A stretch of DNA of 64,000 bases from Treponema sp. (lineage in GTDB: Bacteria > Spirochaetota > Spirochaetia > Treponematales > Treponemataceae). Location of the stretch: contig JAEESZ010000001.1 of the NCBI GenBank assembly GCA_016286535.1, forward strand, positions 1-64,000. Reading direction: 5' to 3'. Position 1 is the stretch's first letter, and the number at the start of each line of letters is the position of its first letter. Of the stretch, positions 5,870-54,940 are shown in pieces. A program made the position numbers and the translations under genes. Under the pieces are notes generated by a model. It made no database searches, was not told where the DNA came from, and saw only the letters and a program-made list of their open reading frames with translations.

Positions 5870-8800
5870 CTACATTCTTGCTTCTATTTTTGCCTTCAAG
5901 TCCTTAATCTTCTGAACATACTGGTTCTGAGGCTTATTTAGAAGCTGTTTTAAAATCTGATTTGCAGCAATTACGTTATTATTCTGAAGATAAACAATTG
6001 CCTGGTTATAAAGCTGTTCATCTTCCATTGAGATTTGTGTAGCCGTTCCTCCCATCTTTGTAATAATTGTATCTTTTAAGCCCTGAGCCTGAGTATTATT
6101 AGGATTCAAAACAAGTGCTCTGTTTACCTTTTCCAGGGCTGACTGCAGTTTTTCAAGATTATTACCAGCATTATTATACGTCTTTTGTGCATCATTATAA
6201 AGATTTTTTGATCTTGTTAAGGCACTATTATCAACAGGCTTCTGTCTAATTCCAATATCTATTTCTACTTTATAAATAAGGTCCTTTAAGCCCTTATAAT
6301 CAGGATTGATTTTATAATAGTCCAGAAGTGTAGAATATCCTTCCTGAACGGTAGCAGAATCCTTACACATATTCTGGGCAATCTTAATCTTCTGGGCAAA
6401 TTCTTCTTCAAACTTTGAAGGGTTCATAAGTTTATTAATCTTTAAAGTTAATAAAGAAGCTTCTGCATTTAAAGGATAAACTACCTGAACCTTACGGATA
6501 TTATCAAGAGCCTTTTGTAAAGCAAGGTTACCCTGCTCTTTATCCCCCTTCCTGTAATACTGCTGACCTTCTTCATAATACTGATTTGCAATATTAATCA
6601 GCTGTGACATTTCCGGATACTGAGGAGCAGATGGAGAAATATCACGGCCGGTCTGCATTGAAATTGCGGTGTTTATATAATTCATAAGGGAGGTAATTTC
6701 TTCATCTTCAACGGCATTTGTAATTGCCCACCTGTTTTTAGCCTGATTAAGATATTTTTCTGCCTCATCAAAGAAGCCGTTAAAGTAAGCTTCTCTGGCC
6801 TGAGTTTTAAGAAGGCGGACTTCCTTTACAATAATTTCGTTTTCTGTTCTGTTGATATTTTCGCCAAGATCAGCAAGTTTTGAATCCCACTCACGTCTAA
6901 GACTTTCGTCATCAGAAATGGTAAGGGCTTCTTCGTATTTAGAAAGCGCCTGTTCAAGTTTTCTTCTTGCAAGGCTGAAATTCTGATTTTTAAGGGCGGT
7001 CTGAGCTTCGCTGTAGCGGGTATCACCCTCGTTTCTTGCAATCTGTGATGATATAATTTTCTGTTGGCTATCATGAGCAAGTTCATCAGATTTTTTCATA
7101 AGCTCTTCAAGTCTTAAAATCTGTGAATCAAGTTCCTTTCTGCATTCTTCATAATAAGAAGAAATTTCTTCGTCTTCCTGCCAGAGGCTTTCTGCATCAT
7201 AATTATTTTTAATTCTTGCCTTATAGTCTGTAATTTCTTTTATTGCAGAATTGATTTTTTTCTGTCCGTAAAGGCTTATATTCAAGGCAATTTCAGGATA
7301 AGAGTAAAGAAGCAGGAGGTTACCGGAAGCGTCAGAATTATCTTTATAAGCAAGGGCTGCCTCAGTATCCTTTGTAAATTTATTTTTGCTTGCGCTGTCA
7401 AGTTTTGAGTTAAAGCCTTTATAAAAACTCTGACCGCTGTCATTAATCAAAACAACTTCATCAGCAAGAGCCTTTGCTTTCCTGGCAAAATATTCACTTT
7501 CTTCTTTCCAGATTAAGTCAAAAAAGTCTTCTGAAGATTTGAATAAAGAATCCCTTTCTTTTGTATATTCTTCTTCAAGTCCCTTAAAGCTTTCATTTTT
7601 ACTTTCTGTATAAGCAGCATAATGATTTATTTTTTCAAGACCTTTATCATCCTTATTTCCAAGAATAAGTATGATTTTTGAAGCGGCCTGCATAAGTTTT
7701 TCTTCAAAGTTCTTATCCTGCCCCTTATTTTTAAGTTCATCTATAGTCTGGTAGGTAAGATTTTTTGTATCATTAATTTCAATTTCGTTATTATAAAGGC
7801 CAGAGACAGCCAGAGTAAGGGCATCAAGATAATCTGTATAAACAAAATATTCAGAAAAAGGATGCACAAAGGTCTGTCCGCTTCTTACATTGAGGAAATT
7901 ATATAAATTCAGGGTATTCTGCTCTAAAAGTGAATAGTTTTTAATTCTGTTTGTATTGGCAGTATTATTGTCAATTTTTTGTTTTGCCGTATAAGAGCTG
8001 TTTGCACAATTTGTTCTGTATCTGTCGTAATATTTCAGGATATTTGCAAAAAGTGCTGTATTCATTCTGGTCATAGCAGCCTTCCACTGGCCGTCTACCG
8101 CACCAATAATTCCAGAATCCGGGATATAGGAAACTCCGTAAATAAAACGGAACATAAAAGGCAGATAAGAGGCGTCCGTACTGTCCTGGTCAAGTTTTTG
8201 TACTTCTTCAAAGAGGACTTCCAACTGATGAGCATCCTCAAAAATGGAATTTCGTAAAGCGGCATATTCCTGAAAAACCTGCAAAACCGTATTAAAATTT
8301 TTTACGGAATCATCGTACTTATCGTTATTAAGGGAGTTTACATAATCGTTTACAGCCTTATTAAAGCGGTTATTAAAGTTTTTATCATTAAAGTTTGCAA
8401 CTTCTTTTTCAAGGTGGTCTACAACTGACTGAGCCTTTGCTGTAATTTCAGGATTATTTTCCCAGCGCTCGTAAAAAGAATCTTTATAAAGCCAGAAACC
8501 ATTCTGACGGATTATTGCAATTGAATCGGAATAAAGGCCGCTTTGGGTATATTCTGCTGACTGGGTTTGAACTTCATTAAACTGGCTTCTGAAATAGTTA
8601 AATTCAGCTGATTTTTTTAAGTCTGCAATAAATTGCAAATGCTCATCAGAAGGATTTTTTTCAAACCTTTCCAGCTGGGCTGTAATTTCGTAAATTTCCT
8701 TATCGTTTCCAGGCTCGGTAAGAATAAGATTTATTAATTTTTCGGCCAGTATTGAATACTGCTTTCTGATGTTCATAATTCTTTTTATTCTTCGCTGGGC

Positions 8801-8983
8801 GTTATCAAAATTATCAGGATATTTATTAATATAAACGTTTAAAAGTCTTAAAGCCTCTTCATAATCGGTTTGACGAATAAGTTTGTCTATTTCAAAAAGA
8901 CTTAAATCATTTTCATCTTTAGCATAAAGAGAGAGTGAGAAAAAACTTAAAATACACAAAAAGAACAAATATCTTTTTTTCAT
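5870..8983 (-). CDS. Secreted TPR-rich protein
   Basis: The protein has 1037 residues, with a cleavable signal sequence (MKKRYLFFLCILSFF, then SLYAKDE). The rest is almost entirely helical. TPR-like units are visible near the N-terminus (IRQTDYEEALRLLNVYINKYPDN), around 690-800 (ALKNQNFSLARRKLEQALSKY and ARRAYFNGFFDEAEKYL-like units) and at the C-terminus (KVNRALVLNPNNTQAQGL and AIVYLQNNNVIAANQIL). It is probably a periplasmic scaffold. It is the first gene of the leftward operon with the SpoIIE sensor phosphatase and the small helical protein, and is divergent from the FadL-like gene, so it could present a ligand or partner to the phosphatase's periplasmic part. That role is inference. Confidence 0.85.
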   Translation of the reverse strand: MKKRYLFFLCILSFFSLSLYAKDENDLSLFEIDKLIRQTDYEEALRLLNVYINKYPDNFDNAQRRIKRIMNIRKQYSILAEKLINLILTEPGNDKEIYEITAQLERFEKNPSDEHLQFIADLKKSAEFNYFRSQFNEVQTQSAEYTQSGLYSDSIAIIRQNGFWLYKDSFYERWENNPEITAKAQSVVDHLEKEVANFNDKNFNNRFNKAVNDYVNSLNNDKYDDSVKNFNTVLQVFQEYAALRNSIFEDAHQLEVLFEEVQKLDQDSTDASYLPFMFRFIYGVSYIPDSGIIGAVDGQWKAAMTRMNTALFANILKYYDRYRTNCANSSYTAKQKIDNNTANTNRIKNYSLLEQNTLNLYNFLNVRSGQTFVHPFSEYFVYTDYLDALTLAVSGLYNNEIEINDTKNLTYQTIDELKNKGQDKNFEEKLMQAASKIILILGNKDDKGLEKINHYAAYTESKNESFKGLEEEYTKERDSLFKSSEDFFDLIWKEESEYFARKAKALADEVVLINDSGQSFYKGFNSKLDSASKNKFTKDTEAALAYKDNSDASGNLLLLYSYPEIALNISLYGQKKINSAIKEITDYKARIKNNYDAESLWQEDEEISSYYEECRKELDSQILRLEELMKKSDELAHDSQQKIISSQIARNEGDTRYSEAQTALKNQNFSLARRKLEQALSKYEEALTISDDESLRREWDSKLADLGENINRTENEIIVKEVRLLKTQAREAYFNGFFDEAEKYLNQAKNRWAITNAVEDEEITSLMNYINTAISMQTGRDISPSAPQYPEMSQLINIANQYYEEGQQYYRKGDKEQGNLALQKALDNIRKVQVVYPLNAEASLLTLKINKLMNPSKFEEEFAQKIKIAQNMCKDSATVQEGYSTLLDYYKINPDYKGLKDLIYKVEIDIGIRQKPVDNSALTRSKNLYNDAQKTYNNAGNNLEKLQSALEKVNRALVLNPNNTQAQGLKDTIITKMGGTATQISMEDEQLYNQAIVYLQNNNVIAANQILKQLLNKPQNQYVQKIKDLKAKIEARM

Positions 8984-9043
8984 CTTTTTAACTAATATAC
9001 ATTTATATTTTCGGTAAATTTACGTTTATTAAAGAGATATTCT

Positions 9044-9083
9044 TCCGATAATTAACTATATTTTCATTATTATATAATATAAT
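9044..9083 (+). promoter_or_regulatory. Promoter region of the FadL-like gene
   Basis: Two overlapping TATAAT hexamers (9073-9078 and 9078-9083) lie 13-18 nt before the ATG at 9097. A TCCGATAA, like a sigma-28 -10 element, lies at 9044-9051, but no TAAA-type -35 is correctly spaced from it. If either TATAAT is used, the mRNA leader is only about 7-12 nt. The AGGA directly touching the ATG is too close to act as a normal ribosome-binding site. Confidence 0.4.
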
Positions 9084-9096
9084 ACAAGAAACAGGA

Positions 9097-10398
9097 ATGA
9101 AACTAAACAGAGTTATTTACATTTTAATTCTTCTCTCTGCCTCTTCAATATTTAAGCTAAGTGCCCTGTCTTTTACAGATTTTTCTTCAACACTGGCAGA
9201 AATTTTTGAAGGAACGATTGATTATAACGAGGGAGATACCTGTTTCCGTTCTTTTATGATTCCTTTTGGCGGCAGAACCGAAAGTCTTGGAGATGCCTTT
9301 ACAGGTTTATGTGATGACATAAGTTTTCTGCGTTACAATGCGGCCGGAAGCTGTATACAGAATAAAACCCAGCTGGCTCTCTATCACAATTCCTGGATTG
9401 CCGATTCAAAAATGGATACTCTGGCCTGCACTACCCGCTACAATCACCTGGGACTGGGAGCTTATCTTTCGGCCTTTTACGTTCCTTTTACAGAATACAA
9501 TATTTATGGGGACCGGGTTGCAGGAAATTATTATTCAGAAAGCACCTTTGCCGCAAATATTTCATACAACTTTCTTGCCGGCTACACTTTTAAAGGTTTT
9601 GCCCTTGGCGCAACTGTAAAAGCAGCCTGGAGAAACATTCCAAACTTTACAGATAACGATACAAACGAAGTAATTTCCTGGTCCGGCTTCAGTCAGTCAG
9701 CTCTTGGCCTTGCTGCAGATTTTGGTCTTATGCTGCAGTTTAATATTTTTAAGTATTACGCTTCCAGAGAGCCGAATTTTAAGATTGGCCTTACCGCCCA
9801 GAATATGGGAATTGCACTTACCGGCGCCGGCTCATCTTCCGGCTTAAGCCCGGAAGCCCTTCCATCATATTTTGCCCTTGGCCTTTCCTATAAAGTAACA
9901 AAACCAATTACAATTTCTCTTGATTATAAACAGCCTGTAAATCTTCTTGACATTTCAACCTTCAGAATTCCTTATATAAGTGCAGGGCTGGAAGTTGCCT
10001 TTACAGAGTCGGCTTCTTTTATTGCTGGTTTTCAGCTGAAAGGTGCTCATCCAAGAATAAGCAGCGGTCTGGAATTTGAATTTTCTAAAATCATTTTTAA
10101 TTTTAACTATACGCTTGATTTAACTTCTTCAATAAATCCGCTCAATAAGTTCAGTCTTTCTGTAAGACTTCCTTTTGGAGATAACGGCCGGGCCGAAAAA
10201 ACTAAGCAGATTGATAAGCTTTATTCCATGGGACTTGAATATTACAGCCAGCAGAAATGGGACGAAGCAATTGCCGTATGGAAAAAAATTCTTGAATTAG
10301 ATAAAAGATATGATCCTGCAATCATCGGAATTACAAGTGCCCAGTACCAAATAGACATGCTCCGAATGATTCAGGAAAGTTTACGCTTAGACAACTAA
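9097..10398 (+). CDS. UPF0164/FadL-like outer-membrane protein with C-terminal TPR
   Basis: The protein has 433 residues. After a signal sequence (ILILLSASSIFKLSA, then LSF) come alternating amphipathic strands rich in aromatic residues and Gly, as expected for a FadL-type barrel. The early FMIPFGGRTESLGDAFTGLCDD, then RYNAAG, matches the UPF0164/PorV-like signature known from Treponema proteins. The barrel runs to about residue 365. The last 65 residues differ: LYSMGLEYYSQQKWDEAIAV and WKKILELDKRYDPA read as one tetratricopeptide unit. It may carry hydrophobic nutrients across the outer membrane, as proposed for treponemal FadL homologues. The family is fairly sure, the substrate is unknown. 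Confidence 0.85.
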   Translation: MKLNRVIYILILLSASSIFKLSALSFTDFSSTLAEIFEGTIDYNEGDTCFRSFMIPFGGRTESLGDAFTGLCDDISFLRYNAAGSCIQNKTQLALYHNSWIADSKMDTLACTTRYNHLGLGAYLSAFYVPFTEYNIYGDRVAGNYYSESTFAANISYNFLAGYTFKGFALGATVKAAWRNIPNFTDNDTNEVISWSGFSQSALGLAADFGLMLQFNIFKYYASREPNFKIGLTAQNMGIALTGAGSSSGLSPEALPSYFALGLSYKVTKPITISLDYKQPVNLLDISTFRIPYISAGLEVAFTESASFIAGFQLKGAHPRISSGLEFEFSKIIFNFNYTLDLTSSINPLNKFSLSVRLPFGDNGRAEKTKQIDKLYSMGLEYYSQQKWDEAIAVWKKILELDKRYDPAIIGITSAQYQIDMLRMIQESLRLDN

Positions 10399-10418
10399 AA
10401 TTACATAAAAGAAAGAAA

Positions 10419-11999
10419 TCAGACTTTCTTTGCAAATACCTTATAGTTCATCCAGGTAAAGATGGAATCTCTTTCTTCAAGGGTTGTAAGCCATTCTGTA
10501 CTTACGGTATTTGAACCAAGAGAATCAAATACAATTGTAAAGGCATTTATAGATTCCTTAAATCTTCTTTCTGCAAAATCTGCATTGTCGCAGTCATTAA
10601 GCATTTTTATAAGACCGGTACTCTGAGCCATTAAAAGTTCAATTGCACCTAAATTCAAAAGTCTGTTTTTAAGTCCGGTATCGCTTGGGAATCTGTCTGC
10701 AAGGTCAATAATTCTTTCACTGGCCTTTTTTACATAACGAATCATCCAGTTAGACTGACCAGTCAGGAATTCTTCGCCATAGCCGTCCCCTTTTGCAGAA
10801 TAGTAAGGTTCTGTTTTTTCAAGGGAATACTGTCTGGCAATAAGATTTTTTCCACATTCAAGGCAGATATCTTTTTTAGCAGCAAGTTCAAACACCTTTT
10901 TAAGCCAGTATAAGAATTCGCTCCATTTAGAACGGATTGTATTTGTATCTGCAGTACAGATAAGGTTTACAAAATCACATTCAGGAAGATATTCAGCAGC
11001 CTTAGAAAGCTTTTCTGAAACGTAATCTGTAAAATCTTCTGCATCAAGCTCTGCCTGCTTTTGAGCAGCAGAAATATCATAATAAGAGTTTTTATCTTCG
11101 CGTTTATTAAAATATTTAAAACCTGTTGAATATCTTACAGAATCAGGGTCTATAAAACTTGCAAGATTATCCAGAGATAATTCAAAACCAATGTCACGAT
11201 TTTCGTTTCGGTAGTCTTCGTGGCAGCAGTAACCGTCTTCGCCAAATAATTTTGGAGTAAACTCTGGATCTTCAGCAAAAAGAACAAGGGAATTATCTGT
11301 TCTTACAGGGTAGAAAATTCCGCTTGAAGGCATTTTTTTAGAAAGAAGAAGAGCGCGGGCATCTAAAACTGTGTAAGAAAAACCATAAGCCTTTATAAGC
11401 TTTTCAACGCCCGGGAAATATCCTAATTCAGGAATCCAGAAGCCTTCCGGAATTTCACCAAAAAACTCGCGGTAGGAATGAAGTCCGCATTCAATCTGAG
11501 CAGAAATAATTTCCGGAGTATCTGAATAATGAGGTACAAATAAATCTGTAGCACAGGTTGCAAGAAGCTCAATTTTATTCTGTTTTACTAAAGCAGCAAA
11601 AGCAGAAATTAAATTACAGTTATATTTATTTGTAAAATCTTCCTTACATGCATTATATTTGTCTAAATTAGCGTTAATTATTGACTGAATTACAGAATTT
11701 TCATTATTTCTTTCAAGTTCTGCATTAGCAAGAGCAATTTTTTTATCGAGCCAGGCCAGATAAAGTTCGTGAATCTGTTTATCTGAAAGGAGGCTGCATA
11801 AAACAGGAGGAAGAACCATGGAAAATTTAATGTTGCTTCCCTCTTCAAAGTTTTCGACCATATTTAATACAGGAAGATAAATATCGCTGATATCTTCAAA
11901 CAAAGTATTTAATACTGGCATATTTATTTTTACATCTACAGCTGTGTGACGTATAAATTCCTGGTTAGCTTTTATAATAAATACAAGATTTTTTTTCAT
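10419..11999 (-). CDS. GH57/DUF1957 alpha-glucan branching-type enzyme
   Basis: The protein has 526 residues, close to the short bacterial GH57 branching enzymes. The GH57 fold is indicated by IELLATCATDLFVPHY and by GFWIPELGYFPGVEKLI near residues 180-195. In that motif the Glu of PELGY is in the place of the catalytic nucleophile, and YTVLDARALL follows. The C-terminal third is helical (NWMIRYVKKASERI, LLMAQSTGLIKML), matching DUF1957. The likely role is to form or remodel alpha-1,6 branches in stored glycogen in the cytoplasm. It lies 16 nt downstream of the DUF4912 gene on the same strand, which suggests one operon. GAAGG precedes the ATG. The substrate is inferred from family only. Confidence 0.85.
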   Translation of the reverse strand: MKKNLVFIIKANQEFIRHTAVDVKINMPVLNTLFEDISDIYLPVLNMVENFEEGSNIKFSMVLPPVLCSLLSDKQIHELYLAWLDKKIALANAELERNNENSVIQSIINANLDKYNACKEDFTNKYNCNLISAFAALVKQNKIELLATCATDLFVPHYSDTPEIISAQIECGLHSYREFFGEIPEGFWIPELGYFPGVEKLIKAYGFSYTVLDARALLLSKKMPSSGIFYPVRTDNSLVLFAEDPEFTPKLFGEDGYCCHEDYRNENRDIGFELSLDNLASFIDPDSVRYSTGFKYFNKREDKNSYYDISAAQKQAELDAEDFTDYVSEKLSKAAEYLPECDFVNLICTADTNTIRSKWSEFLYWLKKVFELAAKKDICLECGKNLIARQYSLEKTEPYYSAKGDGYGEEFLTGQSNWMIRYVKKASERIIDLADRFPSDTGLKNRLLNLGAIELLMAQSTGLIKMLNDCDNADFAERRFKESINAFTIVFDSLGSNTVSTEWLTTLEERDSIFTWMNYKVFAKKV

Positions 12000-12015
12000 T
12001 TTTTAAATACCTTCA

Positions 12016-12669
12016 TCAAGAAAAAGAATGTCTGTGCATTGTATACTGGTGATTTAATACATTTTTAATTCCAGATAATTGAATAACAGGAGGAAAATCC
12101 TGATCAACTCCTTTTTTAAAATCGTAAACTAAGTCTGAACCCTGTGGAATTGTTATTACAGGAGAAATTGCAAGAACTTTTCCGCTTGTAGCTGTTGTAT
12201 AAACAAGTTCAACCTTTACGTATTTTATTCCGGCAGGCAACAAAACATTCTGTTCCTGAGGTTCTCTGCTGGCCTGAATTTCGTAGGCTTCAAAAGGAAC
12301 TGTATCATCTTCGTTTTGTAAGGAACAAACGCGAATTTTTAATTCATAATTATGAAGATTTTTTAACATAAGATGATCAGAATCATTAATGTTCCAGTAA
12401 ACAAAAATCCAGGCTGGATTTCTTAAAACGCAGGCTATCTGAGTTTCATTATAATTTTTTGGAAGTGGCTGTATGCCGTCATTGTTTTCTGATGATATTG
12501 TCATATCATCAATTTTTTCTGATTCTTCTGCAAGCTCAAGTAATTCCGCAATTAAAAATCTTCTGTCCAGATTTTCTGGAACGTCAATTCCAAAATCATC
12601 TGCAAGATTTGTCAGGTCGGAAAATGAAAGTGTTTCAAGTTGCGCTCTATTAAATATTTCCTTACTCAT
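12016..12669 (-). CDS. DUF4912 domain protein
   Basis: The protein has about 217 residues if the ATG at 12669 is used; GGAA lies just upstream, while a TTG three codons earlier is less likely. The N-terminal part is a small helical, acidic segment (LETLSFSDLTNLADDFGIDVP) resembling a SAP/Rho-N-like motif. The central part (about 75-170) is DUF4912, with IACVLRNPAWIFVYWNIND, where NPxWxFVYW is the family hallmark. The function is unknown. The gene sits directly before the GH57 enzyme in an apparent operon, so a role in glycogen metabolism or its control is plausible but unproven. Confidence 0.85.
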   Translation of the reverse strand: MSKEIFNRAQLETLSFSDLTNLADDFGIDVPENLDRRFLIAELLELAEESEKIDDMTISSENNDGIQPLPKNYNETQIACVLRNPAWIFVYWNINDSDHLMLKNLHNYELKIRVCSLQNEDDTVPFEAYEIQASREPQEQNVLLPAGIKYVKVELVYTTATSGKVLAISPVITIPQGSDLVYDFKKGVDQDFPPVIQLSGIKNVLNHQYTMHRHSFS

Positions 12670-12760
12670 AGTTTCCAATAATCGTATAAAAAAAAATCTT
12701 AGTCAATATTGAAAAGAAAAAAGAAATAACAATTTTTTTTATTTATTTTTATTTTTTTCC

Positions 12761-12787
12761 TAAAGTCGAAATCACTTTCACCGATAA
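12761..12787 (+). promoter_or_regulatory. Sigma-28 (FliA/WhiG-type) promoter
   Basis: TAAAGTCG (12761-12768), exactly 11 nt, then ACCGATAA (12780-12787). The known bacterial motility-sigma consensus, also used in Treponema, is TAAAGTTT-N11-GCCGATAA. Here 6 of 8 and 7 of 8 positions agree with exact spacing. The start point would be about 12794. CCGATAAT (12781-12788) also forms an inverted repeat with ATTATCGG (12802-12809) across the predicted start, which may be an operator or chance. Confidence 0.7.
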
Positions 12788-12793
12788 TAAAAT

Positions 12794-12892
12794 TAGTGGT
12801 AATTATCGGGTGGGAAAACATCCAGACACCTGAATCCTATGTTTACTATAAATCTGCCGGAAAGTGTGTGAGACTTTCCGGTTTTTTTTTTT
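12794..12892 (+). ncRNA. Putative sigma-28-dependent small RNA, ~95 nt
   Basis: The predicted transcript starts about 7 nt after the sigma-28 -10 element and ends in a strong intrinsic terminator. It has a 5' hairpin in which GGTGGG (12809-12814) pairs with CC (12822-12823) and CACC (12827-12830) around an AAAACAT loop. A pyrimidine-rich, apparently unpaired stretch (about 12829-12855) follows, then the terminator stem. The unpaired part contains ACCT and ATCCT, which could pair with ribosome-binding sites. The longest frame inside is only about ten codons. It resembles no RNA family I can name: the conserved cores of 6S, tmRNA, SRP, RNase P and the c-di-GMP riboswitches are absent. It could instead be a long leader of the HD-GYP gene, but the terminator argues against that. 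Confidence 0.55.
12857..12892 (+). terminator. Intrinsic terminator of the small RNA
   Basis: CCGGAAAGT (12857-12865) pairs perfectly with ACTTTCCGG (12873-12881) around a 7-nt loop and is followed by eleven T residues (12882-12892). It points rightward and lies 84 nt before the HD-GYP start codon. Confidence 0.9.
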
Positions 12893-12975
12893 AACAAAAA
12901 ATTCTCAAAAAATTGCATTAAATTATATTATTTTTTTTTCATTTAACCGATAATATATATAGGTAATTTTAAAGT

Positions 12976-14478
12976 ATGGACACGATTCAGGTAGATACTC
13001 TGCGTAAAGACACCTCTTTTACCGGAGACTTAATTATTGACAGTTCATTTCTCATTCTTCCTCAAACCGCTTTAATATCGGACGAAGTAATTAAAGCCTT
13101 AAAGCGCTGGGAATTTACAACAATTCTCTGCGAAGGTAATTACAGTCTTGGCGGCAACATTGATTCTGATACAAATGACGAAGAGAACGCTGTTAAAGAA
13201 AATTTCGGAAATACTTTAAAAAAGGCCATTGAAAGCAGTAAGGCAAACTACATTGGAAACAGCGATCAGAACCGAATGGAAATGGTTGAATCTGTTTTCT
13301 TTGAATACATGAATTATATTGAAAAAGTCTTTACACATTATACAACTCATAAAGAAATTGATAAGGAAGAGCTTTCTGAAACAATTCAGGAACTGGTAAT
13401 GTTTGTAAAAGACCACAAAAGATATATTTTACGAATTAATCCTAACCCTGAAGAAATTAAAAAGAACTTCCTGGTTGTTCACTCAATCAGAACTACAGTT
13501 CTTGCAATTGCCATTGCACACCAGCTCCATCTTCCTCTTTCAAAAATAATTGAGCTTGGCGTTACCTGTATTATTCACGAAATTGGTATGCTCAGGGTTC
13601 CTCCTCAGCTTTATATGTCTAACATAAAGCTTACCGTAGGAGAGAAGATGGCCATTTCAAAGCATACCATCTTCGGCTATACAATTGTTAAAGATTTACA
13701 GTTTCCTCTCGCAGTTCAGCTTGGAGTTTTAGAGCATCACGAAAAAGAAAACGGACTGGGCTATCCAAGAAAATTAACCGGAGAAAAGATTTCTTCAAAC
13801 GCAAAAATTATTGCCGTTGCCTGTTCTTACGAAGCCATTTCTTCTTCCAGAAGTTATAAGGCAGAACGTACAACCTTTAATGCAATGATTGAATTGATTC
13901 AGAACAAAGATCATTCTTATGATGATTCAGTTTTAAAAGCCCTGCTCTACACTGTTTCTTTGTATCCTTTAGGAAGTTACGTATATCTTTCAAACAGAAA
14001 ACTTGGTATGGTAAGCGATACAAATCCGGATAATCCAAAATATCCTATTGTACAGCTTTTAACAGAAAGAAATCCTGATGGTTCTCCAATTCTTATTCCT
14101 TCTGACCCTGATGGAATTAACATTTTAAGAAATCTCTCTATCGAAGAAATTACAGATGTTAAAAAACTTATTGCAAAACAAAACAATAAGGATTCAGAAG
14201 AAAAGACTGATAAAAGTCTTTCAGCCGAAAATTCAGCTTCTGAAAATCCAGCTCCGGCTCATAATGCTGCAGCTTCAGAAAAACCAGAAAGCGAAATTGA
14301 TTTAGTAGAAGAAATTACTGAAAATAAAATTCCATCTCCTGCAGAAAATGATATTCCATCACCTTCAGTCCAGGTGTCAAAAGCAGCTTCCGGCGAAAAG
14401 AAGCCTGAAAATGAAGACAAAAAGAGTCAGTCTTCATTAAATACAATGGAATCTGTAGATTTATCTGAATTCGAATAA
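12976..14478 (+). CDS. Degenerate HD-GYP domain protein
   Basis: The protein has 500 residues. The N-terminal 160 residues are an uncharacterised alpha/beta region. Residues 165-330 align with HD-GYP c-di-GMP phosphodiesterases, but key residues differ. The HDIGK motif is HEIGM, the Asp in HHExxDGxGYP is Asn (HHEKENGLGYP), and the VADxxDA motif is VACSYEA. The His residues HSIR, KHT and EHH remain. The C-terminal 120 residues are low-complexity (Pro, Ser, Glu, Ala). It is probably cytoplasmic and may bind rather than cut c-di-GMP. There is no good ribosome-binding site before the ATG. A weak sigma-28-like element (ACCGATAA, 12946-12953) lies upstream. The fold call is secure, loss of activity is inferred. 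Confidence 0.85.
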   Translation: MDTIQVDTLRKDTSFTGDLIIDSSFLILPQTALISDEVIKALKRWEFTTILCEGNYSLGGNIDSDTNDEENAVKENFGNTLKKAIESSKANYIGNSDQNRMEMVESVFFEYMNYIEKVFTHYTTHKEIDKEELSETIQELVMFVKDHKRYILRINPNPEEIKKNFLVVHSIRTTVLAIAIAHQLHLPLSKIIELGVTCIIHEIGMLRVPPQLYMSNIKLTVGEKMAISKHTIFGYTIVKDLQFPLAVQLGVLEHHEKENGLGYPRKLTGEKISSNAKIIAVACSYEAISSSRSYKAERTTFNAMIELIQNKDHSYDDSVLKALLYTVSLYPLGSYVYLSNRKLGMVSDTNPDNPKYPIVQLLTERNPDGSPILIPSDPDGINILRNLSIEEITDVKKLIAKQNNKDSEEKTDKSLSAENSASENPAPAHNAAASEKPESEIDLVEEITENKIPSPAENDIPSPSVQVSKAASGEKKPENEDKKSQSSLNTMESVDLSEFE

Positions 14479-14490
14479 TCAGCAAAAAAA

Positions 14491-15252
14491 TTAATTAAAG
14501 AAATTTCTGATTTTTTCAACATCCTGCTGGAAAGACTCGTCAACTAAAGGCGGATGTTCATTAAAGTATAAAATCTGATCTATTTGTTCCTGAGATTTTA
14601 CACCCCAGATAGGTATTACATTTTCAAACTGTCGTAAAAAACCAAGGGCAAGAGGAATATTATCTATAATTCCGCCCCCTAAAGGCTGCATGGCAATAAA
14701 ACCAACATCATGTTCTTCGCAAAGTTTTACCAGTTCAAAGGTAGATTCCGGACTTACTATACTAAAAGGATACTGCAGGGTTTCATACAAATCTGATTCA
14801 AGGGCTTTTCGGGCGGTTTCGTAGTTGGTGGTAATTAAACCAAAATGTTTGATTTTCCCCTCTTTTTTTGCCTCAAGCAGGAAATCATAAATACCGTCTG
14901 CCCGGCCCGGTTCCGGCAAAAACTTTTCTGTTTCAAACTGATACAAATCCACATAGTCACAGTGAAGGGTCATTAAAGAATCTTCAAGATTCTGCTTTAT
15001 TTCTTCGCAGGTTTTTGCTCTTGTAGAAGTTGATAAAAAAACATTGCGGCGGTAATCAAAAAGGGAGTCTCCCAGCAGCTTTTCGCTGACGGGAGTTTTA
15101 CTGGAAGTATCATAGAAATTTATTCCGGCTTCGTAAGCCTTCCTTACAAGCGTAAATGCGCTTTCCTCGCTTTCGGCTTCATGCAGACGCATTCCGCCAA
15201 AAGCTATTCGAGAAGTAAGTAAGTCTGTTTTACCAAGCCGAACGTATTCCAT
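14491..15252 (-). CDS. Aldo/keto reductase-family protein lacking the catalytic tetrad
   Basis: The protein has 253 residues, short for the family (usually 280-330). The fold signatures are clear: VRLGKTDLLTSRIAFGGMRL at the start, AGINFYDTS, DYVDLYQ, KIKHFGLITTNYE, and GFIAMQPLGGG. Of the usual Asp-Tyr-Lys-His tetrad only Asp48 remains. Thr53 replaces Tyr (DTSSKTPVSE), Ser76 replaces Lys (FLSTSTRA), and Glu107 replaces His (DLYQFE). It probably binds nucleotide or acts in a regulatory or divergent role rather than as a standard reductase. Its ribosome-binding site lies in the loop of a perfect hairpin (15253-15284) immediately before the ATG. It is downstream of glyS on the same strand. Confidence 0.85.
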   Translation of the reverse strand: MEYVRLGKTDLLTSRIAFGGMRLHEAESEESAFTLVRKAYEAGINFYDTSSKTPVSEKLLGDSLFDYRRNVFLSTSTRAKTCEEIKQNLEDSLMTLHCDYVDLYQFETEKFLPEPGRADGIYDFLLEAKKEGKIKHFGLITTNYETARKALESDLYETLQYPFSIVSPESTFELVKLCEEHDVGFIAMQPLGGGIIDNIPLALGFLRQFENVIPIWGVKSQEQIDQILYFNEHPPLVDESFQQDVEKIRNFFN

Positions 15253-15284
15253 ACTAAAAAATTACCTCCGTGTAATTTTTTAGT
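15253..15284 (-). promoter_or_regulatory. Perfect 13-bp hairpin presenting the Shine-Dalgarno sequence in its loop
   Basis: Arms 15253-15265 and 15272-15284 are perfectly complementary over 13 bp, with a 6-nt loop. On the minus strand the CGGAGG spans the loop and the edge of the stem (15265-15270), and the arm ends directly against the ATG of the aldo/keto reductase (15252). The linear distance from GGAGG to ATG is about 12 nt, longer than usual, so folding would change the access or spacing of the ribosome. Confidence 0.7.
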
Positions 15285-15286
15285 AG

Positions 15287-15351
15287 CGAGTTTTTACTTT
15301 GTAAAAACTCGTACATCAAATTACACTTTGTAATTGCGCCATCCATGGCGC
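15287..15351. repeat. Cluster of three further perfect short palindromes
   Basis: In order: 11-bp arms 15287-15297 and 15301-15311 (CGAGTTTTTAC / GTAAAAACTCG, loop TTT); 6-bp arms 15319-15324 and 15330-15335 (AATTAC / GTAATT); 7-bp arms 15336-15342 and 15345-15351 (GCGCCAT / ATGGCGC). Together with the hairpin at 15253-15284 they fill almost all of the gap between glyS and the reductase. The first shares the CGAGTTTT...AAAACTCG form with a hairpin at 35019-35044. Confidence 0.8.
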
Positions 15352-15355
15352 ACCG

Positions 15356-16834
15356 TTATCTGATTACAGGCTTATAATTCTTTATTGCTTTCTGAATAAA
15401 GAATACGAGGTCATCAAGAGCAACACGTTCCTGTTCCATGCTGTCGCGGAAACGTACAGTAACAGTATTAAAGAGAGGATTCTTAGAACCGTCTTCTTTT
15501 GTTTCCTGAATTGTATCGTAGTCTACAGTAACACAGAAAGGTGTACCAACTTCGTCCTGACGGCGGTAACGTTTACCTACTGTTCCAGAAGTATCATAGT
15601 CAGTTACAAAATCTTCTTTAAGAAGGTGCTGAATTTCCTTAGCTTTTTCTGCAAGACCGTCTTTTTTCATTAAAGGAAGAACTGCAACTGTAATTGGAGC
15701 TAAACGTGGGTCAAGGTGAAGTACAGTTCTGTAATCTTCATTTCCGTCTGTACCAACATTCTGCTCTTCATAAGCTTCACAAAGGAACATAAGGAAGTTT
15801 CTGTTAAGACCTGCTGAAGTTTCAATTACATATGGAACATAGCGTTTGTTTCCGTCTTCCTGGTCGATATAAGACATATCTTTTTTAGAGTATTCCATGT
15901 GCTGGCTAAGGTCAAAGTCAGTACGGCTGTGAATACCTTCAATTTCTTCAAATCCGATTGGGAAGTTGTAAGTAATATCGTAAGCATCTTTTGCGTAATG
16001 TGCTAATTTGTCGTGATGATGCCATTTAAGCTGTTTTTCCGGAATACCGTATTTGAGGTAGAAAGCCCAGCGGTCCTTTCTCCAGCGGTCAAAAGTTTCG
16101 TCTTCTGTTCCAGGTTTACAGAAATATTCCATTTCCATCTGTTCAAATTCACAGGTACGGAAAATAAAGTTTTTAAAGATGATTTCATTACGGAAAGATT
16201 TACCAACCTGAGCAACACCAAAAGGAACCTTCATACGGTTAGACTGAACAATGTTCTTGAAGTCTGTAAAAATACCCTGACAGGTTTCTGGACGAAGATA
16301 AATAAGATGACTTTCGTCTGCAATTGGTCCCTGATATGTTTTAAACATAAGGTTGAATTCGCGAACTGCTGTATATTTGCGTTCTTTACTTCCGCAGGTA
16401 GGACAGTTGATGTTTGCATCGATGTAAGCCTTCATTTCTTCGTGAGTCATTGTATCAACTGGTTTTCCAGGGTCTTTATCTGGATTTGCAGCAACAAAGT
16501 CTTCAATAAGTTTATCTGCTCTATGGCGGGCCTGACATTCAAGACAGTCAATCATAGGATCCGAAAAATGATCTACGTGCCCACTAGCCTTCCAGGTTGT
16601 ATGATGCTGGAAAATTGCAGAATCGAGTCCTACAACATCATCATGAAGCTGGGTCATATAATGCCACCATTCATTCTGAATATTTCTCTTGAATTCTACA
16701 CCTAAAGGACCGTAATCCCAAGCACCAGCCTGTCCGCCGTAAATTTCTGAAGCCTGATATACAAAACCTCTTCTTTTACAAAGACTAATAATTTTGTCTA
16801 ATGTACATGCATGTGAATCTTTTTCGTTTGCCAT
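15356..16834 (-). CDS. glyS: Glycine--tRNA ligase (dimeric type)
   Basis: The protein has 492 residues, the alpha2-type class II enzyme that charges tRNA-Gly. Motifs include YGGQAGAWDYGPLGVEFKRN near residue 35, a CxxC pair (CLECQARH, then CPTCGSKE), and motif 2 region FGVAQVGKSFRNEI. IHSRTDFDLSQH, ETSAGLNRNFL and the C-terminal anticodon-binding domain (VAVLPLMKKDG to the end) follow. The ATG is preceded by TGGAG. It is transcribed leftward, 84 nt after the PilZ gene. No T-box leader is visible in that gap, which fits a spirochaete. Confidence 0.97.
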   Translation of the reverse strand: MANEKDSHACTLDKIISLCKRRGFVYQASEIYGGQAGAWDYGPLGVEFKRNIQNEWWHYMTQLHDDVVGLDSAIFQHHTTWKASGHVDHFSDPMIDCLECQARHRADKLIEDFVAANPDKDPGKPVDTMTHEEMKAYIDANINCPTCGSKERKYTAVREFNLMFKTYQGPIADESHLIYLRPETCQGIFTDFKNIVQSNRMKVPFGVAQVGKSFRNEIIFKNFIFRTCEFEQMEMEYFCKPGTEDETFDRWRKDRWAFYLKYGIPEKQLKWHHHDKLAHYAKDAYDITYNFPIGFEEIEGIHSRTDFDLSQHMEYSKKDMSYIDQEDGNKRYVPYVIETSAGLNRNFLMFLCEAYEEQNVGTDGNEDYRTVLHLDPRLAPITVAVLPLMKKDGLAEKAKEIQHLLKEDFVTDYDTSGTVGKRYRRQDEVGTPFCVTVDYDTIQETKEDGSKNPLFNTVTVRFRDSMEQERVALDDLVFFIQKAIKNYKPVIR

Positions 16835-16918
16835 TTTTAGTTACTCCAATAATTACTTATTGAGATAAGTTACCACAAAAGAAAACACTTTGCAAATGAA
16901 TAAGACCTAATCTCTTCT

Positions 16919-17827
16919 TTATTTGTTATTTTCGGGATTAAAGATTTCAACCTGAGAATCTATTTCCTGCATATCCTTGTCATTAAGCTCATCTTTTTCT
17001 TTTTCATCTTCTTCAACATATTTTGAATAATCACTGTTATCTCTTGGAAGAGTATCCATTAACTGTTTGTTACGGTTTTCAAGGTTTTCAAAAACAAAGT
17101 TATGAATTTTAAGCTTAGTCATATCTGAAGTTTTTTCATCATATATAGCAACGATGGTACAGACATTTCCTTCAATTTTTAGATTATATATTTTTACAGT
17201 ACAGACAAAAGAATAACGGCCCATTGTAATGGAAACATTTTCAAGCCTTGTATCTTTCTTTATAAACTTTGCCATATTGACCGGCATGACTGCGGCAAAA
17301 CCTACACTCGAAATATCTACAAGACGGAATGAATGTAAAAGAGAAGAGTATGCAAAATATCCGTTTACATCCTTACAGTTTTTTAAATCCAGACGGATTA
17401 CTTTTCTTACTCCTTTTGCTTCATTTAAATCAAGGGTATCGTTTATTTGCTTTAATAATTGCTGGGGCTTCTGGTCCAGACTGACTATTCCGGCCTGAAG
17501 TTTAAGTTCTTCGTTTAATTTTTCTTTCTGCTCAGCCTTTATTTTATTTGAAAGAATGCCTATGCGGACATTTTTTACTTTTTCATCTTTCTGAAAGGAT
17601 TTTATAAAATTAACCCAGGTTTGAAGGGGTAAAAGGTCATCTATGTAAACAAAAAGGATTGAATCGGGATACATGCCTAAAAGAGGTTTTGCAATTGAAT
17701 AATCGGGAATGGAATAAACCTCATACTCATCGGACTTTAAAGAATCCATAATGAAATTTTCAATATTAAGAGGAGGATTCAGAAAAAATGTCTTGCGGCC
17801 AAAAATCGGCTTATCGTTATTTTCCAC
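16919..17827 (-). CDS. PilZ-domain protein with receiver-like N-terminus
   Basis: The protein has 302 residues. Residues 10-125 look like a receiver-type alpha/beta domain (YEVYSIPDYSIAKPLLGMYP, SILFVYIDD, VRIGILSNK) without an obvious full phosphorylation triad. Residues 138-245 form a PilZ domain: RKVIR gives the RxxxR element and VDISSVG gives DxSxxG, both used to bind cyclic di-GMP. The C-terminal 55 residues are highly acidic. It is probably a cytoplasmic c-di-GMP effector. The start is GTG, 12 nt after the dus stop. A TATACT (minus strand, 17834-17839) lies 6 nt before it, so a leaderless transcript is possible. Confidence 0.82.
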   Translation of the reverse strand: MENNDKPIFGRKTFFLNPPLNIENFIMDSLKSDEYEVYSIPDYSIAKPLLGMYPDSILFVYIDDLLPLQTWVNFIKSFQKDEKVKNVRIGILSNKIKAEQKEKLNEELKLQAGIVSLDQKPQQLLKQINDTLDLNEAKGVRKVIRLDLKNCKDVNGYFAYSSLLHSFRLVDISSVGFAAVMPVNMAKFIKKDTRLENVSITMGRYSFVCTVKIYNLKIEGNVCTIVAIYDEKTSDMTKLKIHNFVFENLENRNKQLMDTLPRDNSDYSKYVEEDEKEKDELNDKDMQEIDSQVEIFNPENNK

Positions 17828-17839
17828 ATTAAAAGTATA

Positions 17840-18829
17840 CTACAGCTTATTAAAATTCACAAATTGCTCATCACTACATTTTGCAAAAAAATCTTCAAGG
17901 CGGTTTTTAAGGTCTGCATTATCTTTTGCGTTTAAAAACTGGGTCTGGGCATAATGGCTGAACTTAAAATTATTAGAGTAATATGTAAAAAAGCGCTGCA
18001 GCCTGGTCTTCCAGAATTCCGGAGGCTGATATTTTTCTACATCATCAATAAAATCAAAGGCTATTTGTTTTAAATCCACATGATCCTCTAAACCTTTCAA
18101 CTGAGCAAAAATCCAGGGCTTCTCAATGCTGGCCCGGCTTATCATCACGCCATCCACCCGGGGAGCTTTAGAAAGGGCATAGTCATAAGAGGCCTTATCC
18201 TTAACATTTCCGTTCAGGTAAACTTTTACATTCCTTTTATGCATAAGATCTGCAAGTTTTTCGCAGTATTCGTATCTTGCAGGTCTGGTAAGTTTTTCCT
18301 TTTTAGTTCTCGGATGAAGGGTAAGCAGTTCTACCCCGCTGTCGCAAAGCATGTTACAAAAATCAAAAAAGCCCTGGTCAGTAAAATCATCATCGCCAAG
18401 GCGGAGTTTTACGCTGAACCTTTTATTCTGATTATGCTCTTTATTATAATCACTTATTACCTGTCTTATTCCCCTTACCATAGCCTGAGTTTCTTCTATC
18501 GGTTTAAGCATCCAGGCAATGCCGCTTCCAAAACGGTAAATATCTGGAGCAGAACAGCCCATATTTAAGTCAATTCCAATGCAGGGAAGCTCTACAAGGA
18601 TTTTTGAAGCTTCAATCATCTGCTCATTATTTTTACCTGTAAGCTGCCAGACAATTTTTTCGGGTACAGGAGCAGGATCTATATAAAATTTTTCAAAAGG
18701 ACCTTTTGTAAGCAGGGTTCCGGCATTTATCATTTCTGTAAAATATTCATCACAGCCGCCGAATTTTTCTATTAAGATTCTAAAAGCCGGATGAGAAATT
18801 GTTGCCATTGGACCGCATATAAGTTTCAT
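17840..18829 (-). CDS. dus: tRNA-dihydrouridine synthase
   Basis: The protein has 329 residues, typical for the flavin-dependent Dus family that reduces uridine in the tRNA D-loop. It begins LICGPMATISHPAFR, the FMN-barrel start. NMGCSAP near residue 92 carries the catalytic Cys, SVKLRLG and LLTLHPRTKKE line the active site, and VYLNGNVKDK and GVMISRASIEKPWIF bind FMN phosphate. It is upstream of the PilZ gene. A minus-strand TATAAT (18837-18842) with TTTTCA 17 nt further up lies so close that the start codon is at or next to the predicted transcription start. The exact Dus subgroup cannot be decided by eye. Confidence 0.93.
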   Translation of the reverse strand: MKLICGPMATISHPAFRILIEKFGGCDEYFTEMINAGTLLTKGPFEKFYIDPAPVPEKIVWQLTGKNNEQMIEASKILVELPCIGIDLNMGCSAPDIYRFGSGIAWMLKPIEETQAMVRGIRQVISDYNKEHNQNKRFSVKLRLGDDDFTDQGFFDFCNMLCDSGVELLTLHPRTKKEKLTRPARYEYCEKLADLMHKRNVKVYLNGNVKDKASYDYALSKAPRVDGVMISRASIEKPWIFAQLKGLEDHVDLKQIAFDFIDDVEKYQPPEFWKTRLQRFFTYYSNNFKFSHYAQTQFLNAKDNADLKNRLEDFFAKCSDEQFVNFNKL

Positions 18830-54913: not shown

Positions 54914-54940
54914 TCAATTTTTAGACAAATTTGCCGATAA
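54914..54940 (+). promoter_or_regulatory. Sigma-28 promoter of the FN3-lipoprotein operon
   Basis: TCAATTTT (54914-54921), 11 nt, GCCGATAA (54933-54940). The -10 part is a perfect match to the motility-sigma consensus and 6 of 8 -35 positions agree. The ATG at 54948 is only 8 nt on and no ribosome-binding site is present, so the mRNA may be leaderless. Confidence 0.7.

Follow-up and report, generated by a model that had tools for sequence, protein, structure and literature searches.

The window analysed here is a stretch of 64,000 nucleotides (nt) from a Treponema sp. genome (contig JAEESZ010000001.1, positions 1 to 64,000 of the forward strand), and our subject is a candidate small-RNA gene at 12794-12892, which lies between a sigma28-type promoter and a signalling gene of the HD-GYP type (Table 1). 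A reading made from the sequence alone had proposed a small RNA of ~95 nt at this site. The promoter that it described is present as written, with the exact spacing of TAAAGTCG, 11 nt and ACCGATAA (12780-12787); the same arrangement can be expressed as TAAAGTCG-N12-CCGATAA over 12761-12787. Transcription is predicted to start at about 12794-12797, which corrects the likely length of the transcript to ~97 nt. The stem-loop and T run placed ~69 nt past the promoter were also confirmed; the stem has ten pairs, and this is the top terminator-like site within 8000-18000. Between promoter and terminator there is, as had been claimed, no open reading frame of at least 60 amino acids. A coded peptide was considered and rejected, as relatives do not preserve the ATG...TGA frame seen here and no reading frame is conserved.

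Table 1. Coordinates of the promoter, the parts of the RNA and the downstream gene in the window
Feature	Position	Strand	Basis
-35 element TAAAGTCG of the sigma28-type promoter	12761-12768	+	Read in the sequence; same element upstream of homologues
-10 element CCGATAAT	12781-12788	+	Read in the sequence
Outer helix P0 (12796-12802 with 12843-12849)	12796-12849	+	Fold and strand-swap test
P1 hairpin (UCGGGUG 12806-12812 with CACCUGA 12827-12833)	12806-12833	+	Compensatory changes
Nearly invariant ACAUCCAGA, 3' side of the P1 loop beside the stem	12818-12826	+	Conserved in alignments
Linker with CCUAUGUUUACU (CUCCUAUG or UCUCCAUG in relatives, with UUUAC often after it)	12834-12855	+	Alignments
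Intrinsic terminator (stem 12856-12865/12873-12882, loop GUGUGAG 12866-12872, T run to 12892)	12856-12892	+	
HD-GYP-type gene (HD_5, PF13487), the usual neighbour though not an obligatory one	12976-14478	+	

Conservation and fold of the RNA

The element is present as a single copy in its own genome, and homologues in relatives were recovered by plain DNA search and then aligned. A search with the core pattern across one genome per species (84,980 species) returned only 21 stretches, every one of them in an assembly of Treponema or of a related spirochaete; T. bryantii XBD1002, B25 and NK4A124 and Treponema sp. JC4 and C6A8 are among them. A first covariance model, based on 18 sequences, matched 137 of 196 genomes of the same genus, nearly always once per genome. 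With a second model, built from 46 sequences, 66 of 81 near-complete genomes of the family gave a match at E<=0.01; 55 of these, by hand count of the table, reached E<=1e-4, and they span 11 of 14 genera. The sequence-only reading had named a lack of conservation beyond the terminator as one outcome that would speak against it, and the covariance searches found instead an element conserved family-wide. Outside the family only weak covariance-model matches appeared, and those examined were without the core motif. These and the matches in genus g21 were not counted as members since they do not carry CAUCC(A/G)GA. A strict promoter-loop pattern found nothing in g21 and nothing in a 1.1-Mb genome of genus g22, and the g22 genomes (L175-L179) retain the promoter and P1 with a different terminator. 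Rfam gave no family at or above its gathering score within 12650-13000.

The predicted 98-nt transcript folds at -29.9 kcal/mol, compared with -19.6 kcal/mol for shuffled sequences (z -3.3; 0 of 200 shuffles). RNAalifold applied to a MAFFT alignment of 18 sequences gave P1 and the terminator, the two helices that also emerge from the 46-sequence alignment. In the larger alignment, all seven P1 pairs and 11 of the 14 terminator stem pairs show two-sided compensatory changes, 18 of 21 pairs altogether, with 149 such cells against 37 in shuffles and 0 of 500 shuffles reaching the observed value; because this alignment was fitted to the covariance model, the counts lean towards the model. Structures slid along the same alignment fail the covariation test. 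The outer helix P0 is supported by strand swapping, in which 5' and 3' strands of the same species pair at a mean of -6.6 kcal/mol and those of different species at -4.9 kcal/mol (0 of 5000 permutations). P0/P1 forms the conserved hairpin at the 5' end. A hairpin of the -10 box CCGATAAT with ATTATCGG was rejected, because it would span that box and take in promoter bases upstream of the likely start, and because the covarying partner of UCGGGUG is CACCUGA instead.

While the adjoining stems covary, ACAUCCAGA and the terminator loop GUGUGAG are nearly fixed, and ACAUCCAGA is kept in distant genera. An open centre carrying ACCT and ATCCT had been proposed; ATCCT (12834-12838) does lie in the linker, but ACCT (12828-12831) belongs to the 3' strand of the covarying helix P1. 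The region between P1 and the terminator also varies among relatives. One subclade (L147-L156) has an additional conserved stretch, GUAGCUGUGAAAUGC, and three loci (L010, L030 and L142) carry long repeat-like inserts in the linker, such as GTCAAGGCACGC...

The promoter and its sigma class

By itself, the promoter match is weak and not significant, since the 2.55-Mb genome has 17 matches to TAAA-N15/16-CCGATAW and 10 to a reversed control. The -10 box alone is not specific either, as CCGATAA also stands 6-8 nt ahead of the start codons of non-flagellar genes of the same genome (L199, L206, L207 and L209). TAAA-N15-CCGATA was found upstream of the RNA in 49 of 73 loci and in 1 of 2,544 random control segments of the same loci, with a spacing of 15 nt in 47 of the 49; near-miss promoters are visible at several of the remaining loci. 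The full form persists at the RNA in distant genera. Together with the conservation and covariation of the element, these counts are the decisive evidence that the observation is real, and they strongly support the proposal of a small RNA under a motility-sigma promoter.

Similar promoters precede flagellar genes. In this genome they were seen before the flgN-flgK operon (TAAAGTTA-N12-CCGATAA), flagellin and a fliS-like gene, with gene names assigned by inspection, and one also precedes flgN in relatives. The mapped start of T. denticola flaB2 has CCGATAA as its -10 element, and preliminary data reported by the authors indicate that this gene requires FliA for its expression (PMC9481697). A sigma28 consensus promoter stands at the place expected for a sigma28 (FliA)-dependent small RNA (sRNA), and this similarity suggests that the RNA depends on sigma28 and would be expressed with the late flagellar genes.

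Two further observations were made on promoters of this kind. CCGATAA boxes 6-14 nt ahead of non-flagellar start codons, at the four loci mentioned above and at 54934 in the window, suggest mRNAs that have a very short leader or none and a -10 element resembling CCGATAAT. A leader hairpin, GGGUGGUGAGAACCC or GGGUGGUGGAAACCC, is common to the flagellin genes of two genomes (L225, ~15583, + strand; L343, ~17824, + strand), where it comes after a sigma28-like promoter.

Neighbouring genes and possible partners

The genes around the RNA are not constant. The HD-GYP gene is divergent from the RNA in 3 of the 57 genomes that have both on one contig and is located on another contig in 18 genomes. The RNA persists with a divergent HD-GYP gene at L005 and L106, and it is retained where HD-GYP is not the next gene (L012, L101, L107, L113, L116, L118, L123, L142 and L189). 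Genes of the DUF4912 and GH57 types are the other neighbours in the T. bryantii-like group, and at seven loci the RNA still adjoins DUF4912 but the downstream gene differs. L118 carries a CobW-type gene, and L189 carries one that resembles CoaE by sequence. In several other genera the RNA follows an MptE-like (Maf-type) gene, for example at L118 and L126; this family is linked to flagellin glycosylation. Because the RNA is kept where HD-GYP is inverted or elsewhere, and because its neighbours vary, we regard it as an autonomous gene and not a leader. Its own promoter and intrinsic terminator give it the arrangement of a trans-encoded sRNA. It does not show the constant position, upstream of and co-oriented with HD-GYP, of a cis-leader or riboswitch. 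As to the HD-GYP protein of the window itself, HEIG replaces the usual HDIG while HHEKENGLGYP is retained, and one metal site may be altered.

Hfq (PF17209) was detected in 0 of 30 relatives, with all five control genomes positive, so the RNA lacks the Hfq-encoding background of an Hfq-dependent sRNA. It also differs from CsrB-type RNAs, which carry several conserved GGA loop motifs; the conserved unpaired motifs here are ACAUCCAGA and GUGUGAG. Complementarity to mRNAs was examined in parts of two genomes. Across ~1.27 Mb of the own genome (959 predicted genes), GGAUGU was found in the ribosome-binding sites of flgM, of the flgN-flgK operon and of two genes that putatively encode a chemoreceptor and a response regulator, all of them identified by inspection of the sequence only. 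Pairing of ACAUCC with these sites was nevertheless rejected as unsupported, being neither conserved nor replicated. In nine species flgM falls within the top 5-25% when set against the linker, but its G-rich Shine-Dalgarno sequence would give this result with any pyrimidine-rich RNA. The earlier suggestion that ACCT and ATCCT pair with ribosome-binding sites finds no support in its details, given the position of ACCT in the P1 stem. Pairing of Shine-Dalgarno sequences with the pyrimidines of the linker, which in many relatives read UCUCCAUG or CUCCUAUG, is still conceivable, but the searches gave no conserved target.

Mode of action and alternative explanations

We consider it likely that 12794-12892 is an autonomous sRNA gene of treponemes that depends on sigma28, and we infer that it is transcribed and most likely acts in trans. 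It would make no protein and is probably a regulatory RNA, so far undescribed, with a link to motility. In the mechanism that we envisage, RNA polymerase with sigma28 (FliA) would start ~97 nt before the intrinsic terminator, and the folded RNA would display ACAUCCAGA on its 5' hairpin, P0/P1, followed by the short linker with its pyrimidines and by the hairpin of the terminator with the GUGUGAG loop. The exposed segments would base-pair with mRNAs in trans without Hfq, and the RNA would thereby tune gene expression to the state of flagellar assembly. Provided that the RNA is real, base pairing is our working hypothesis for its mechanism, one that we favour by a little.

Several observations weigh against this interpretation. 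The promoter class is assigned from sequence alone. In one subclade the RNA carries a GGAUGU of its own that is complementary to ACAUCC, which leaves ACAUCCAGA partly base-paired and is a poor fit to a simple open seed. GGAUGU is absent at flgN of relatives and flgM of relatives mostly has GGACGU, while in 800 kb of a second genome the two genes with GGAUGU were unrelated ones, so that the motility link was not replicated; in a duplex-energy ranking of 182 orthologue pairs from two genomes, the best products were no better than the null. Finally, the RNA lies upstream of HD-GYP on the same strand in 54 of the 57 one-contig genomes, at 17-567 nt and with several other genera included, as a cis role would likewise predict. 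That arrangement would suit an attenuator or riboswitch-like leader whose hairpin would respond to a ligand or protein and so govern transcription past the terminator into HD-GYP. We find such a leader improbable, since the RNA persists where HD-GYP is divergent or another gene comes next, its strong terminator is conserved and no competing anti-terminator was seen, and the HD-GYP gene of the window has its own CCGATAAT box 29 nt ahead of its start. A housekeeping promoter with a CCGATAAT-like -10 element, driving an RNA unrelated to motility, would account for the CCGATAA boxes near non-flagellar start codons and for the small excess of genome-wide matches over the control. This too is unlikely, as distant genera keep the full TAAA-N15-CCGATA form at the RNA and the promoter resembles those of flgN, flagellin and the mapped T. 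denticola flaB2. Promoter-like matches are common in this AT-rich genome, but a chance pairing of such a match with a terminator, yielding no functional RNA, is contradicted by the family-wide conservation, the covariation and the P0 swap test, and we hold it to be extremely improbable.

Protein binding is a serious alternative to mRNA pairing. The RNA would then be real and sigma28-driven, and would bind a KH-domain or other RNA-binding regulator through ACAUCCAGA beside P1 and GUGUGAG. The fixation of both motifs while their stems covary is consistent with this, as are the persistence of ACAUCCAGA even where it is partly pairable inside the RNA and the failure of the searches to give a conserved mRNA target. 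However, a fixed loop is equally expected of a seed with many targets, the fixed motifs contain no GGA and so do not make the RNA a CsrA sponge of the known kind, and no protein partner is known; we give protein binding an appreciable but minority weight. Its fuller form, a family-wide RNA, in treponemes without detectable Hfq, that is made with the late flagellar genes and binds a protein through these two motifs, is put forward tentatively and seems doubtful; if true, it would link gene expression to motility state in a new manner.

Small RNAs that belong to the flagellar hierarchy are already an established kind. The sigma28-dependent UhpU, MotR, FliX and FlgO of Escherichia coli tune flagellar and other genes (PMC10578931). 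These RNAs derive from untranslated regions in an organism that contains Hfq, whereas the treponeme RNA is intergenic, with its own promoter and terminator, in a lineage with no detectable Hfq; we claim no relation in sequence or structure. In Campylobacter jejuni, CJnc170 (FlmR) depends on FliA and CJnc230 (FlmE) on RpoN, and CJnc230 directly represses flgM (PMC11187230). The role in the flagellar hierarchy would be shared, but flgM pairing in treponemes, as judged by sequence only, is not conserved. In our reading, the treponeme RNA likely works in the manner of the flagellar sRNAs of E. coli and Campylobacter.

Our literature searches found no such RNA described in Treponema, although most subscription papers lay outside the search and novelty is therefore not proven. 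In its main text, a survey of structured RNAs in the human microbiome names Treponema only for ribosomal-protein leaders (PMC8040213), and very few sRNAs are annotated in Spirochaetes, with six distinct ones in the table of PMC9029176. Spirochaetes depend on motility, and in a treponeme group without detectable Hfq such an RNA, conserved, structured and apparently driven by the flagellar sigma factor, would offer a concrete, testable entry to the post-transcriptional control of motility.

The window also contains a second structured RNA, which is a separate element. A TD-2 RNA (RF03162) at 15248-15352 on the minus strand scores 52 bits against a gathering score of 48.7 and lies directly upstream of an aldo/keto reductase gene. 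Its first hairpin, GCGCCATGGATGGCGC, has GGA in the loop and is reminiscent of a CsrA site.
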